A model generated the notes under the pieces. It was not told where the DNA came from, made no database searches, and was given only the letters and a program-made list of their open reading frames with translations. 33,755 nt of DNA from Planctomycetota bacterium. Its GTDB lineage: Bacteria > Planctomycetota > Planctomycetia > Pirellulales > Pirellulaceae. Position numbers and translations under genes: made by a program. Positions 11,795 through 16,202 of this stretch are shown piece after piece. The stretch is taken from NCBI GenBank assembly GCA_029977825.1, contig JAPOKD010000005.1, positions 1-33,755 of the forward strand, in the 5' to 3' direction. The first letter of the stretch is position 1, and every line of letters starts with the position of its first letter.

Positions 11795-12145
11795 ATGGCC
11801 AACGCTGAAACCACACTCCAGCAGCACATTCGCCTAGCAGTCGGGCAGCGCTCTGACGTGCGACTCTTCCGCAATAACACCGGCACCCTGCCAGATCCAC
11901 GCACCGGCCGCCCGATCCAATTCGGCCTAGCCAAAGGCTCCGCTGATCTTATCGGAATCAAACAAATCACCATCACCCCCGACATGGTCGGTCAGACCAT
12001 TGGTGTCTTCACGTCCATCGAAGTCAAGACACCAACCGGCCGAGTCACGCCTCAACAACGCAACTGGCTTGCGATGGTCCGCAAACTTGGCGGCATCGCT
12101 GGGATTGCTCGCTCAATACGAGACGCAAACGAAATCTTGGGATAG
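11795..12145 (+). CDS. VRR-NUC domain nuclease
   Basis: 'RLFRNNTGTLPDPRTGRPIQFGLAKGSADLIGI...FTSIEVKTPTGRVTPQQRNWLAMVRKLGGIAGIAR'. Confidence 0.85.
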   Translation: MANAETTLQQHIRLAVGQRSDVRLFRNNTGTLPDPRTGRPIQFGLAKGSADLIGIKQITITPDMVGQTIGVFTSIEVKTPTGRVTPQQRNWLAMVRKLGGIAGIARSIRDANEILG

Positions 12146-12198
12146 GTGGGCAAGGTTGACTAGGCAGGGCATCATGCGCGGGCCTGAGCAGCCTCGCA

Positions 12199-14241
12199 AT
12201 GAGCACAATCGCCCAAACCATCGACCAGCTCCCTGACTCCTGGGCTTTTGTCGCCGTGGGTAATGACAAGCGGCCATATATGCCGCAGTGGCAGAAAACC
12301 CCTCTCGACAAGCCACGCCTTCGAGCTGAACTTGACTCCGGCCGTGCCGTTGCCGTTGGTGTCCTCGCAGGCCCTGCATCCGGTGGCCTGCTGTTCGTCG
12401 ATCACGATGGCCTCGGCGCATCCGAAGTGCTCCAATCCCTCGGGACCTCACTCCAAGAACTCCCCAAGTCTTGGGCCGTAACCTCCGGCCGCGATGGCCG
12501 CCTTCAAATCATCTACCAAGTCCCACAACCGTTCTGGGACAAAATCAAAACCACAAAACTTCGCTCATCAGTCAAAGGCGAGCAACTCGAACTCCGCTGG
12601 ACCGGCTGCCAGTCCATCGTCCTTGGCAAACACCCCATCACCGGCTCCTATCGCTGGCTCAAGGATCGAGCACCTAGCGACCTTCAACTAGCCGAAGCAC
12701 CATCAGTGCTGCTCGCTGCAATGCAACGCATCGAGCAGACCCCACTGCTCAGCACACCGTCAGACGTAGACGAAACCGAACGAGCCCGCGCCTATCTCGA
12801 CAACATCCCAAGTTCATTCGCAGATGATTACGACGAATGGCTCAAAGTCGGGATGGCTTTGCATTCTGTCGGTGACGACGCATTGCTCGCTGATTGGATC
12901 CAATGGTCAGCAGCATCAGGCAAGTTCAAAGCCGGTGAATGTGAGCTGAAGTGGAAGACATTCAAATCCGACAATGGTGGCGTCGGCATGGGCACACTCC
13001 ACCACATGGCAGGTGGAATCAGCCCCCGCCAAGTTGCAATCAATGCCCTTAAAGGTGCGTTAGGCCCAGATCATCCAAAGGTCGAACAATCCAACAGCGG
13101 AAAACTCATAAAACTTGAAGCCAATGAACTCCTTACGCTGCTTCGCCAACAATTAGGCGGGCGCGTAAGACACAACATCTTCACACAAACCATCGAACGC
13201 GATGGTCAACCAATCAAAGATCTCGATCATTACTATCTCGAACTTGCTGAGCATGGCGTCAAGGTTTCCAAAGAGCTCGCCGCTGACGCAATCGTGCATG
13301 TCGCGCGTGAGTCTCCATTTGATCCGGTCCGGGCTTATCTCGATCGGGTAGCTGATGAGGTCGTGCCTGGCTGCATCGATGCCCTGAGCACCGCCTACCT
13401 GCGCCTACAAGACGCCTCAGGGTCGCTTTACGACCAGATGCTCAGATGCACCCTCATCGGCGCTGTGAGGCGCATTTACGAGCCAGGTTGCAAGCATGAC
13501 GCCGCCACCGTGCTCCTCGGCCCCCAAGGCTGCGGCAAGTCCACCTTCTGGCGTGCCCTCGCTGGCCCCTTCTTTTCCGACTCTCTGCGCGACTGCAGCA
13601 GCAAGGACGATCTGATGGTGCTCCACCGCTCGTGGCTCATGGAGTGGGCCGAGCTGGACTACATCACCGGCAAGCGACACGCCGGGCAGGTCAAAGCCTT
13701 CCTCTCACAGCAGACCGACACCTTCCGCGTGCCTTACGGCAAGGCCACCGAAGAATTCCCACGCCGCGGAATCATCGTCGGTTCCACGAACAAAGACACC
13801 GGGTTCCTGATTGACGACACCGGCAACCGTCGCTTTTGGGTCATTCCCACGATCGTGCCGGACATGATCAACATCGACGGCCTGCTGCTCGAACGCGATG
13901 CCCTCTGGTCTGCAGCAGTTCACGCCTATCGCTCCGGGGCCAGCAACCACCTATCTCGCGAGCTGAGCCAACAGGTCGAAGCAGAGAACGGCGCCTATCT
14001 GGTGGACTCACCGTGGCTCATGCCCGTCCGCGAATGGATCGAGGCGCCACGCAATGCCGGAGCAGTCATCACAACGGAACTGCTCCTGACTCAAGCGATC
14101 GGCAAACCAGTCGAGCGCCAGTCTCGCGCGGATCAAATGCAGATTGCGTCCATCTTGAGATCGCTGGGATACGTCAAACAGCGCCTCACCCACGCTGGTG
14201 GGCAGAAAAGGGTCTGGTGCCAACCTCCGGCCAAAGGTTGA
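12199..14241 (+). CDS. Primase/helicase: N-terminal prim-pol-like plus C-terminal VirE/VapE ATPase
   Basis: 'WAFVAVGNDKRPYMPQWQ', 'GLLFVDHDG', Walker A 'LLGPQGCGKSTFW', 'GSTNKDTGFLIDDTGNRRFWVIP'. Confidence 0.9.
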   Translation: MSTIAQTIDQLPDSWAFVAVGNDKRPYMPQWQKTPLDKPRLRAELDSGRAVAVGVLAGPASGGLLFVDHDGLGASEVLQSLGTSLQELPKSWAVTSGRDGRLQIIYQVPQPFWDKIKTTKLRSSVKGEQLELRWTGCQSIVLGKHPITGSYRWLKDRAPSDLQLAEAPSVLLAAMQRIEQTPLLSTPSDVDETERARAYLDNIPSSFADDYDEWLKVGMALHSVGDDALLADWIQWSAASGKFKAGECELKWKTFKSDNGGVGMGTLHHMAGGISPRQVAINALKGALGPDHPKVEQSNSGKLIKLEANELLTLLRQQLGGRVRHNIFTQTIERDGQPIKDLDHYYLELAEHGVKVSKELAADAIVHVARESPFDPVRAYLDRVADEVVPGCIDALSTAYLRLQDASGSLYDQMLRCTLIGAVRRIYEPGCKHDAATVLLGPQGCGKSTFWRALAGPFFSDSLRDCSSKDDLMVLHRSWLMEWAELDYITGKRHAGQVKAFLSQQTDTFRVPYGKATEEFPRRGIIVGSTNKDTGFLIDDTGNRRFWVIPTIVPDMINIDGLLLERDALWSAAVHAYRSGASNHLSRELSQQVEAENGAYLVDSPWLMPVREWIEAPRNAGAVITTELLLTQAIGKPVERQSRADQMQIASILRSLGYVKQRLTHAGGQKRVWCQPPAKG

Positions 14242-14322
14242 CTAACTGAGATCCAGCTGCTGGCCTGCCGTCTTCCATCCTTGCCTACCTGACTACCTTT
14301 CTATAAGATTATATTTATATAA

Positions 14323-14352
14323 GGGGGAAGAGGGGGTATAGGGGGAAAAGGG
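14323..14352 (+). promoter_or_regulatory. G-quadruplex motif GGGGGAAGAGGGGGTATAGGGGGAAAAGGG
   Basis: Four G-tracts with three 4-nt loops; adjacent to AT-rich ataagattatatttatataa. Confidence 0.75.
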
Positions 14353-14379
14353 CTTATATAGGAAACAGATGACTAAGGT

Positions 14380-14430
14380 TGGACGTTGGCAAGCTGATGG
14401 CACGTCCAGCCGCTGTCTCATGTGAGACAG
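14380..14430 (+). promoter_or_regulatory. Tandem inverted repeats upstream of 14455 ORF
   Basis: TGGACGT(14380-14386)/ACGTCCA(14402-14408); CTGTCTCA-TG-TGAGACAG (14413-14430). Confidence 0.55.
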
Positions 14431-14454
14431 GTGAGACGGATTTAAGCTTTAGGT

Positions 14455-15141
14455 ATGGGCATCAACCTGACAATCGATCACGATCTCAACCGGGCATCCG
14501 CCTGGTCCACCGCGATCGGCAAGCAGCTTCCATTTGCCACCAGCGTCGCCCTTAACGACACTGCATTTGATGCGCGTCAGGCCCTGAACAACGGCACAAA
14601 GGGAGCCTTCCACAAGCCCGTCAAGTTCACGCAGACAGCCTTCCTCGTTCAGAAGTCAAATAAGCGTGAGCTGATCGCCCTGGTCTATGCCCAAGACAAG
14701 CAAGGCAAGGACCGCGCGCGTTACCTACGGTTCGGCATTGCAGGCGGCTCACGTCCTCAGAAGGGCCTTGAACGATATTTCGAGAACGCAGTTCCGAACG
14801 ATGGCACCATCCCATCTGGCGCCTACTTCATGCCGACATCCTTGGTGAAAACCAACGCATCCGGCAACGTCACCCAAGCCACCCTCAAGCGCATCACCAA
14901 GGGCATCAGCGGCGACAAGCGCGGTGGCTTCTTTATCGGCACTCCACGCGGAGGCAACCGCCCGCCTGGTATCTATCGCCGTTCACGCGAGCAGTTGTTC
15001 CCATACTTCATCGCAACCACAGACCGACCCGACTACACAGGACGATTCAACATCCAGCAGATCGGGGAGAAGGTTGTAGAGCGACGCTTTAACCAGCACT
15101 TCCAGACCGCATTAAGCAAAGCACTTGCGTCTGCTCGCTAA
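14455..15141 (+). CDS. Hypothetical, possible virion morphogenesis/minor structural protein
   Basis: 228-aa ORF at the start of the late module; no confident family recognised. Confidence 0.7.
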   Translation: MGINLTIDHDLNRASAWSTAIGKQLPFATSVALNDTAFDARQALNNGTKGAFHKPVKFTQTAFLVQKSNKRELIALVYAQDKQGKDRARYLRFGIAGGSRPQKGLERYFENAVPNDGTIPSGAYFMPTSLVKTNASGNVTQATLKRITKGISGDKRGGFFIGTPRGGNRPPGIYRRSREQLFPYFIATTDRPDYTGRFNIQQIGEKVVERRFNQHFQTALSKALASAR

Positions 15142-15200
15142 TGTGATGGCCTGGCGCAGTGCTACCTGCCCAGACCGTGACCACCTAAACCACCTAGGCG

Positions 15201-16202
15201 ATGGATTTAGTGTATTCCTTTGACCCTGCCAGATGGCACCTAGGCGTGTTGTGCAAGCGCCAGCACGCATGGCCTGGCACTAATCAAAGTCTTAGGCGAA
15301 ACCATGTAAAGGCAACTGCCTGCGCTGGATGCACATCAACAAAAGCAAATTGGTTAGACAGTTTTATAGATAACGAAGCAATGGGCTTGTCGCCTAACAA
15401 GCTTGGGAAGCTATGCCCACATGGCCACCGATGGGGCAACATCTCTTTAACTCTCCGCAATAAACACGGCAAATGCATTTACTGCGAAAAGTCAAGAACA
15501 CGCAGCATAAGCAAAGAATATAGAAAAAATTACTACAAAAAGAACAAAGAAAAAATTTTGCAAAAGCTAAAAACGCCAGAAGCAAGAAAAAAAAGAGCTG
15601 AATACGCAAGAAACAATCGACCATCAAGGGCAATTCATACTGTTGAGTGGCATGAAGTTAGGCGCCTCAATGCAGCAATTAAGCGTGCAGGCAAATTGCC
15701 ATCTGTTGCTTTCTTAGTGCAACAACAGCAGGCACAGCATTGGGCAACGAATCCAGACGACAAACGCGCAACCATGGCGCGTTGGAATGCTCAACAGGCG
15801 CAATGGCTATATCTCACAGATCACAGCTATCGCCTATATCACCGGCAAAAGTCCAAACACTACAAAGCAATAAAGCGCGGGAATCATTCCGCGTTGATAC
15901 CAGGCGCTCAACTGCTCAAAAGATGGGCAGAGTTCGGCCATGCCTGTGCTTACTGCGGCAAGCCAGACCATCGGGCACACGAGCTGGAGCTAGAGCACGT
16001 TATCCCTATCAGCAAAGGCGGCGGCCATCACCTCGGCAACATCGTGCCCGCTTGCTCTCAGTGCAACAGCAGTAAGCGATCGAGCGATGCTCTTGCCTGG
16101 TATCAGAAGCAGTCTTTTTATAGCGACGCAAGATGGAAAAAAATTTGCGCCATTCTCAATAAGAAATTGCCGGAATGGCAGCAGATGCGCCTGATCGCAT
16201 AA
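15201..16202 (+). CDS. HNH endonuclease with duplicated N-terminal Cys/His fingers
   Basis: 'CAYCGKPDHRAHELELEHVIPISKGGGHHLGNIVPACSQCNSSKRSSDA'; 'CKRQHAWPG...CAGC' and 'CPHGHRWGN...CIYC'. Confidence 0.88.
   Translation: MDLVYSFDPARWHLGVLCKRQHAWPGTNQSLRRNHVKATACAGCTSTKANWLDSFIDNEAMGLSPNKLGKLCPHGHRWGNISLTLRNKHGKCIYCEKSRTRSISKEYRKNYYKKNKEKILQKLKTPEARKKRAEYARNNRPSRAIHTVEWHEVRRLNAAIKRAGKLPSVAFLVQQQQAQHWATNPDDKRATMARWNAQQAQWLYLTDHSYRLYHRQKSKHYKAIKRGNHSALIPGAQLLKRWAEFGHACAYCGKPDHRAHELELEHVIPISKGGGHHLGNIVPACSQCNSSKRSSDALAWYQKQSFYSDARWKKICAILNKKLPEWQQMRLIA

Follow-up and report, generated by a model that had tools for sequence, protein, structure and literature searches.

What does a phage genome keep in the 213 bp (14242-14454) between the stop codon of its primase-helicase gene on the left and the start codon of a minor tail protein gene on the right? 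The first-pass annotation of this gap named a G-quadruplex, an AT-rich tract, and inverted repeats, all of which are present base for base, and proposed a candidate replication origin or a late-gene switch. The stretch of DNA analyzed here (the window, 33,755 nucleotides) has ends that overlap by 141 bp and therefore represents a whole circular genome, that of an S-LBS1-like cyanosiphovirus of 33,614 bp. Its gene content is of the cyanosiphovirus type and related to that of Synechococcus phages S-LBS1 and S-CBS1, and it forms contig C519 of a 6.4 Mb assembly of 1025 contigs. Rfam and tRNA searches of the whole window gave no matches. Coordinates of all features in and around the gap are in Table 1.

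Table 1. Features of the gap and the adjoining primase-helicase gene, in window positions.
Feature	Position	Strand	Remarks
Two tandem iterons AGGTGGGCAA (12144) / AGGTTGACTA (12153)	12144-12162	+	proposed autoregulation operator
PrimPol-PriCT_2-VapE-like AAA+ helicase-C-terminal winged helix	12199-14241	+	proposed initiator
C-terminal part with winged helix	13918-14238	+	proposed iteron-reading domain
Iteron AGGTTGGCAC	14217-14226	-	last codons of primase gene; 8.2 bits
Iteron AGGTTGACTA	14235-14244	+	spans primase stop codon; weaker, 6.4 bits
Small palindrome CCAGC-T-GCTGG	14252-14268	.	inside weakly conserved ATCCanTGC block
Iteron AGGATGGAAG	14272-14281	-	10.6 bits
Iteron AGGTAGGCAA	14281-14290	-	12.1 bits
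Iteron AAGGTAGTCA	14290-14299	-	weaker, 5.7 bits
AT-rich tract ATAAGATTATATTTATATAA	14303-14322	.	proposed DNA unwinding element; region's lowest-GC 18-mer, with a single G/C
G-rich C-free tract with canonical G-quadruplex GGGGGAAGAGGGGGTATAGGGGGAAAAGGG	14323-14352	+	loops all 4 nt
Iteron AGGTTGGACG	14376-14385	+	12.1 bits; overlaps first arm of TGGACGT inverted repeat
Inverted repeat TGGACGT/ACGTCCA	14380-14386/14402-14408		spacer 15 nt
Inverted repeat CTGTCTCA/TGAGACAG	14413-14420/14423-14430		
TGTCTCA-TG-TGAGACA-GGTGAGAC	14413-14438	+	three TGAGAC copies; third fits iteron motif
Iteron AGGTGAGACG	14429-14438	+	9.0 bits
Additional GTGAGAC	14431-14437		

Missed by the earlier annotation was a cluster of iterons that starts within the 3'-terminal codons of the primase gene and runs through the gap. 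The iteron consensus is AGGTTGG with C, A, or G as the next base, and copies occur on both strands. Bit scores come from a position weight matrix trained on relatives, with the window and its nearest relatives left out; a motif search without a limit on site number gave poly-G and was discarded. In this held-out scan no other 275-bp piece of the genome was as dense in sites as this region, where 5 sites scored 8 bits or more vs 0.3 expected, and the result held with G-run sites excluded. The three copies at 14272-14299 adjoin at 9-bp spacing, and CCTACCTTCCTACC-type repeats like these were also found in relatives. Near the 3' end of the primase gene, TTGCCWACCT (the 14217-14226 site) and GGTWGG (the position of the 14235-14244 site) were each kept in 7/7 aligned relatives, and few parts of the region were as well conserved as the TTGCCAACCT and AGGTWGGCAA arms there.

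Across a set of 68 non-redundant loci, window included, the iteron cluster lay directly 3' of the PrimPol-VapE primase-helicase with a mean of 8-9 sites per 300 bp vs a background of 0.30. An unbiased count agreed: around the primase stop codon of 97 loci, the top 8-mer had a mean of 6.4 copies vs 4.1 in control pieces, and most of the winning 8-mers were versions of AGGTWGG. Relatives with the same gene pair shared a gap plan of CCTACC/CCAACC repeats, an AT tract, a G-rich tract, and GGTTGGCA-type repeats, in that order. The AT tract was present in most relatives, about 55-90 bp past the primase stop, and iteron orientation differed on its two sides over the 68 loci, with 261 minus and 97 plus copies to the left and 220 plus and 65 minus copies to the right. 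Purine content rose from 0.35 to 0.67 across it. The isolate S-LBS1 shared this arrangement and contained four tandem GGTTGGGCA plus CCTAACC repeats following its primase gene. By eye, many relatives also had a short hairpin-like block resembling the ATCCanTGC palindrome block of the window. The iteron motif was not found in three distant relatives (L014, L015, and L018), two of which carry other repeats.

A cluster between a replication gene and a tail gene could serve either. The iterons might be bound by a regulator that activates the downstream structural genes. The minor tail gene follows the gap immediately, and in the closest clade TGTCTCA-TGAGACA-GGTGAGAC is retained close to it, both in line with this view. 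However, the cluster persisted where the tail gene was missing: it was found in 38/38 loci in which the tail gene follows the primase gene (mean 8.8 sites/300 bp) and in 27/30 loci in which it does not (mean 8.0 sites/300 bp). Upstream of tail genes without an adjacent primase it was nearly absent (mean 0.87 sites/300 bp vs the background of 0.30), and the S-CBS1 tail gene had 0 motif sites in its preceding 300 bp. The cluster tracks the primase rather than the tail gene. This assigns it to the replication module and speaks against a late-gene switch. Neither a sigma-70-like promoter nor a terminator was found in the gap. With the cluster following the primase and the gap having no detected promoter or terminator, the late-gene switch proposed by the earlier annotation did not hold up as the main role, and we regard it as very unlikely. 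A late-gene promoter/operator region was rejected as a candidate, since the element was not retained beside the late gene in loci with a different upstream gene. Two tail-gene relatives without a detectable primase relative (L042 and L050) had GTAACGG-type repeats preceding the tail gene, which may serve another initiator as its origin.

The elements that first drew attention to the gap varied in their conservation. The window contains the only canonical G-quadruplex motif of the genome; shuffled genomes contained 0.37 per genome, and one arose in 40/2000 dinucleotide shuffles of the gap (2%). The motif might itself be functional as a replication pause, an origin strand marker, or a transcription control element, and its being the sole one in the genome would fit such a role, as would the enrichment of the G-rich C-free tract (two or more GGG runs in a stretch lacking C) in 47/68 regions vs 3/1223 control pieces. 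Yet the canonical four-run motif was present in 7/68 loci only, though the rest of the region was kept. Based on these comparisons the G-quadruplex appears mostly specific to the window phage, not the conserved element, and we consider a function of its own quite unlikely. A speculative and rather unlikely reading of the G-rich C-free tract is that it is a Prim-Pol priming zone, whose C-rich complement would be the preferred template for a G-started primer after AT melting. If this were true, one protein would set the opening site, the start of synthesis, and the strand.

At least three short inverted repeats arose in 25/2000 dinucleotide shuffles of the gap. TGGACGT-N15-ACGTCCA was absent from the closest relatives, and in the alignment the TGAGAC element was kept within the closest clade but not beyond it. 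TGTCTCA-NN-TGAGACA-GGTGAGAC was kept upstream of the minor tail gene in L003, L004, L025, L030, L038, L081, and L085, and may be a clade-specific operator or additional initiator sites. A different sequence, CCTACCCTTGGnnC, was conserved immediately 5' of the minor tail ATG in many relatives, L027, L030, L038, and L046 among them; the window did not contain it.

The protein encoded next to the cluster has the domains of a candidate initiator. Pfam identified Prim-Pol, PriCT_2, and VapE-like (8.5e-64) domains. The fold of the helicase plus C-terminus matched PriRep1-dsDNA (7pds; Foldseek E ~1e-15), as did its profile, with a weaker match to the C-terminal region of NrS-1. The last ~75 residues form a winged helix (wHTH) in a high-confidence prediction: AlphaFold2, run with the S-LBS1 row left out, placed HTH helices followed by a beta-hairpin wing, with pLDDT >85 over residues 31-100 of a 107-aa fragment. 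A Foldseek search of the isolated C-terminal domain against the PDB gave weak generic winged-helix matches, none at E <=0.001.

Iteron type varied with this domain. GGTWGGG repeats accompanied wings GKR and RQW/SRxY in 15/15 cases, GGTTGGAC accompanied wing GRRR in 5/7, and the KWV-type wing mostly had GGTTGGCA/AA (34/41). Given the AAA+ domain, the partial correlation of iteron type in non-coding DNA with the C-terminal domain was 0.25-0.27 vs 0.08-0.13 for controls. Shared ancestry inflates all of these figures, the wing counts included, and linkage contributes in part to the co-variation. An earlier run in which the final primase codons were included gave 0.38; these codons alone could create a correlation. 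The columns co-varying most with iteron type were mainly in the wing hairpin, in a column analysis that included these codons.

The motif also occurred in front of the primase gene. Sites upstream of the primase start were found in 49/64 loci (background 0.19 per 190 bp), in most of these as a single copy or two between roughly -43 and -63. The 10-mer AGGTTGACTA occurred twice in the window genome, once in the upstream pair (12153) and once spanning the primase stop codon (14235). The simplest reading of the upstream pair is autoregulation. An alternative is that the iterons are operators only, autoregulating the primase-helicase operon while replication begins elsewhere. The iteron pair upstream of the gene in most relatives and a GC-skew minimum to the right of the gap are compatible with such a role. 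The main cluster, however, is 3' of the gene, around the AT tract and in opposed orientation, an arrangement that is origin-like rather than operator-like, and we judge the operator-only explanation highly improbable. The cumulative GC-skew minimum was 0.3-2.8 kb from the iterons and on the right in 11/12 related genomes; in these 12 genomes it followed the packaging-gene start rather than the iterons, and is only loosely consistent with an origin at the iterons. In S-LBS1 it was <0.3 kb from the iterons. The window minimum was at 16059-16071, and in most of the related genomes examined the minimum preceded the large terminase gene by about 0.5-1.2 kb rather than lying at the iterons.

We therefore consider it highly probable, on comparative grounds, that 14217-14438 is an iteron-type replication origin combined with an autoregulatory operator, bound by the adjoining primase-helicase. 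Conservation, clustering, orientation bias, primase linkage, the predicted wHTH fold, and co-variation were all obtained by computation. The candidate origin of the first-pass annotation is well supported, on grounds that differ from those originally given: conserved iterons, an AT tract, and a primase-helicase with a predicted wHTH. By analogy with known systems, we infer iteron binding, AT melting, initiation, and autoregulation by the primase-helicase. Its C-terminal winged helix would bind AGGTTGGCA-like iterons, and the opposed arrays would place helicase hexamers around the AT tract. The tract would then melt, and the fused PrimPol domain would prime synthesis. Through the upstream pair, the primase-helicase could sense and repress its own synthesis. 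Wing sequence would set specificity, with the GKR wing (L047) favoring GGTTGGGCA and the GRRR wing (L045) GGTTGGACGG.

Parts of this arrangement are known elsewhere. Phage P4 alpha is a single primase-helicase that recognizes short origin iterons, and P4 has two iteron-bearing sites, ori and crr. The cyanophage system is similar in having one primase-helicase protein, iterons at the proposed origin that this protein would recognize, and two iteron-bearing sites. P4 has another primase type and another iteron, and its second site is the large crr, whereas in the cyanophage genome a short iteron pair ahead of the initiator gene makes up the second site. Iteron plasmids with an autorepressing Rep have iterons, an AT-rich tract, and a related site before the initiator gene, all three of which the cyanophage region shares; by contrast, Rep in these plasmids is no helicase and depends on DnaA/DnaB. 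A close likeness is also seen to SaPI Rep/PriRep1. PMC7581432, citing Ubeda et al. 2007, describes SaPI Rep as binding iterons just 3' of its own gene through its C-terminal domain, and the isolated C-terminal domain of SCCmec Cch2 binds short direct repeats that lie between genes, immediately past the helicase gene (PMC7581432). The putative Cch2 origin differs from the cyanophage region in having three 5-nt iterons only and a separately encoded primase. In common with SaPI Rep/PriRep1, the cyanophage protein has a VapE-like/D5 AAA+ helicase and a C-terminal DNA-binding domain (predicted here), with short iterons directly downstream. Of the traits of the SaPI Rep/PriRep kind, we found the AAA+ SF3/D5/VapE helicase, the predicted C-terminal wHTH, the downstream iterons, and an AT tract by the arrays. 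Unlike in SaPI Rep/PriRep1, the genomes here are phage-size cyanosiphovirus genomes, the helicase is fused to an AEP Prim-Pol, the iteron sequence is another, a G-rich C-free tract lies beside the AT tract, and an iteron pair is also present upstream of the gene.

In the literature searched, we found no description of a cyanosiphovirus replication origin, and the two papers containing both 'iteron' and 'cyanophage' did not, judging by title and abstract, deal with such an origin. The words 'repeat' and 'iteron' were both absent from the S-LBS1 genome paper. Our result points to an origin in a widespread group of marine and freshwater cyanobacterial phages, and to an initiator and origin whose specificities vary together in nature, with repeat type matched to wing sequence. 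It would also make initiation by a Prim-Pol/VapE helicase testable in an isolate, S-LBS1.

Two further observations concern the surroundings of the iterons. In S-LBS1 (L077), an iteron-bearing stretch of ~120 bp was present twice at the record end (34236-34641), which may be a genuine duplication or an artefact of assembly across the repeats. In the window, an A-rich HNH endonuclease gene (15201-16202) lies between the minor tail protein gene and the terminase small subunit gene. Composition at 15001-16000 (GC 0.48, AT skew 0.27) suggests that this gene is a later insertion.
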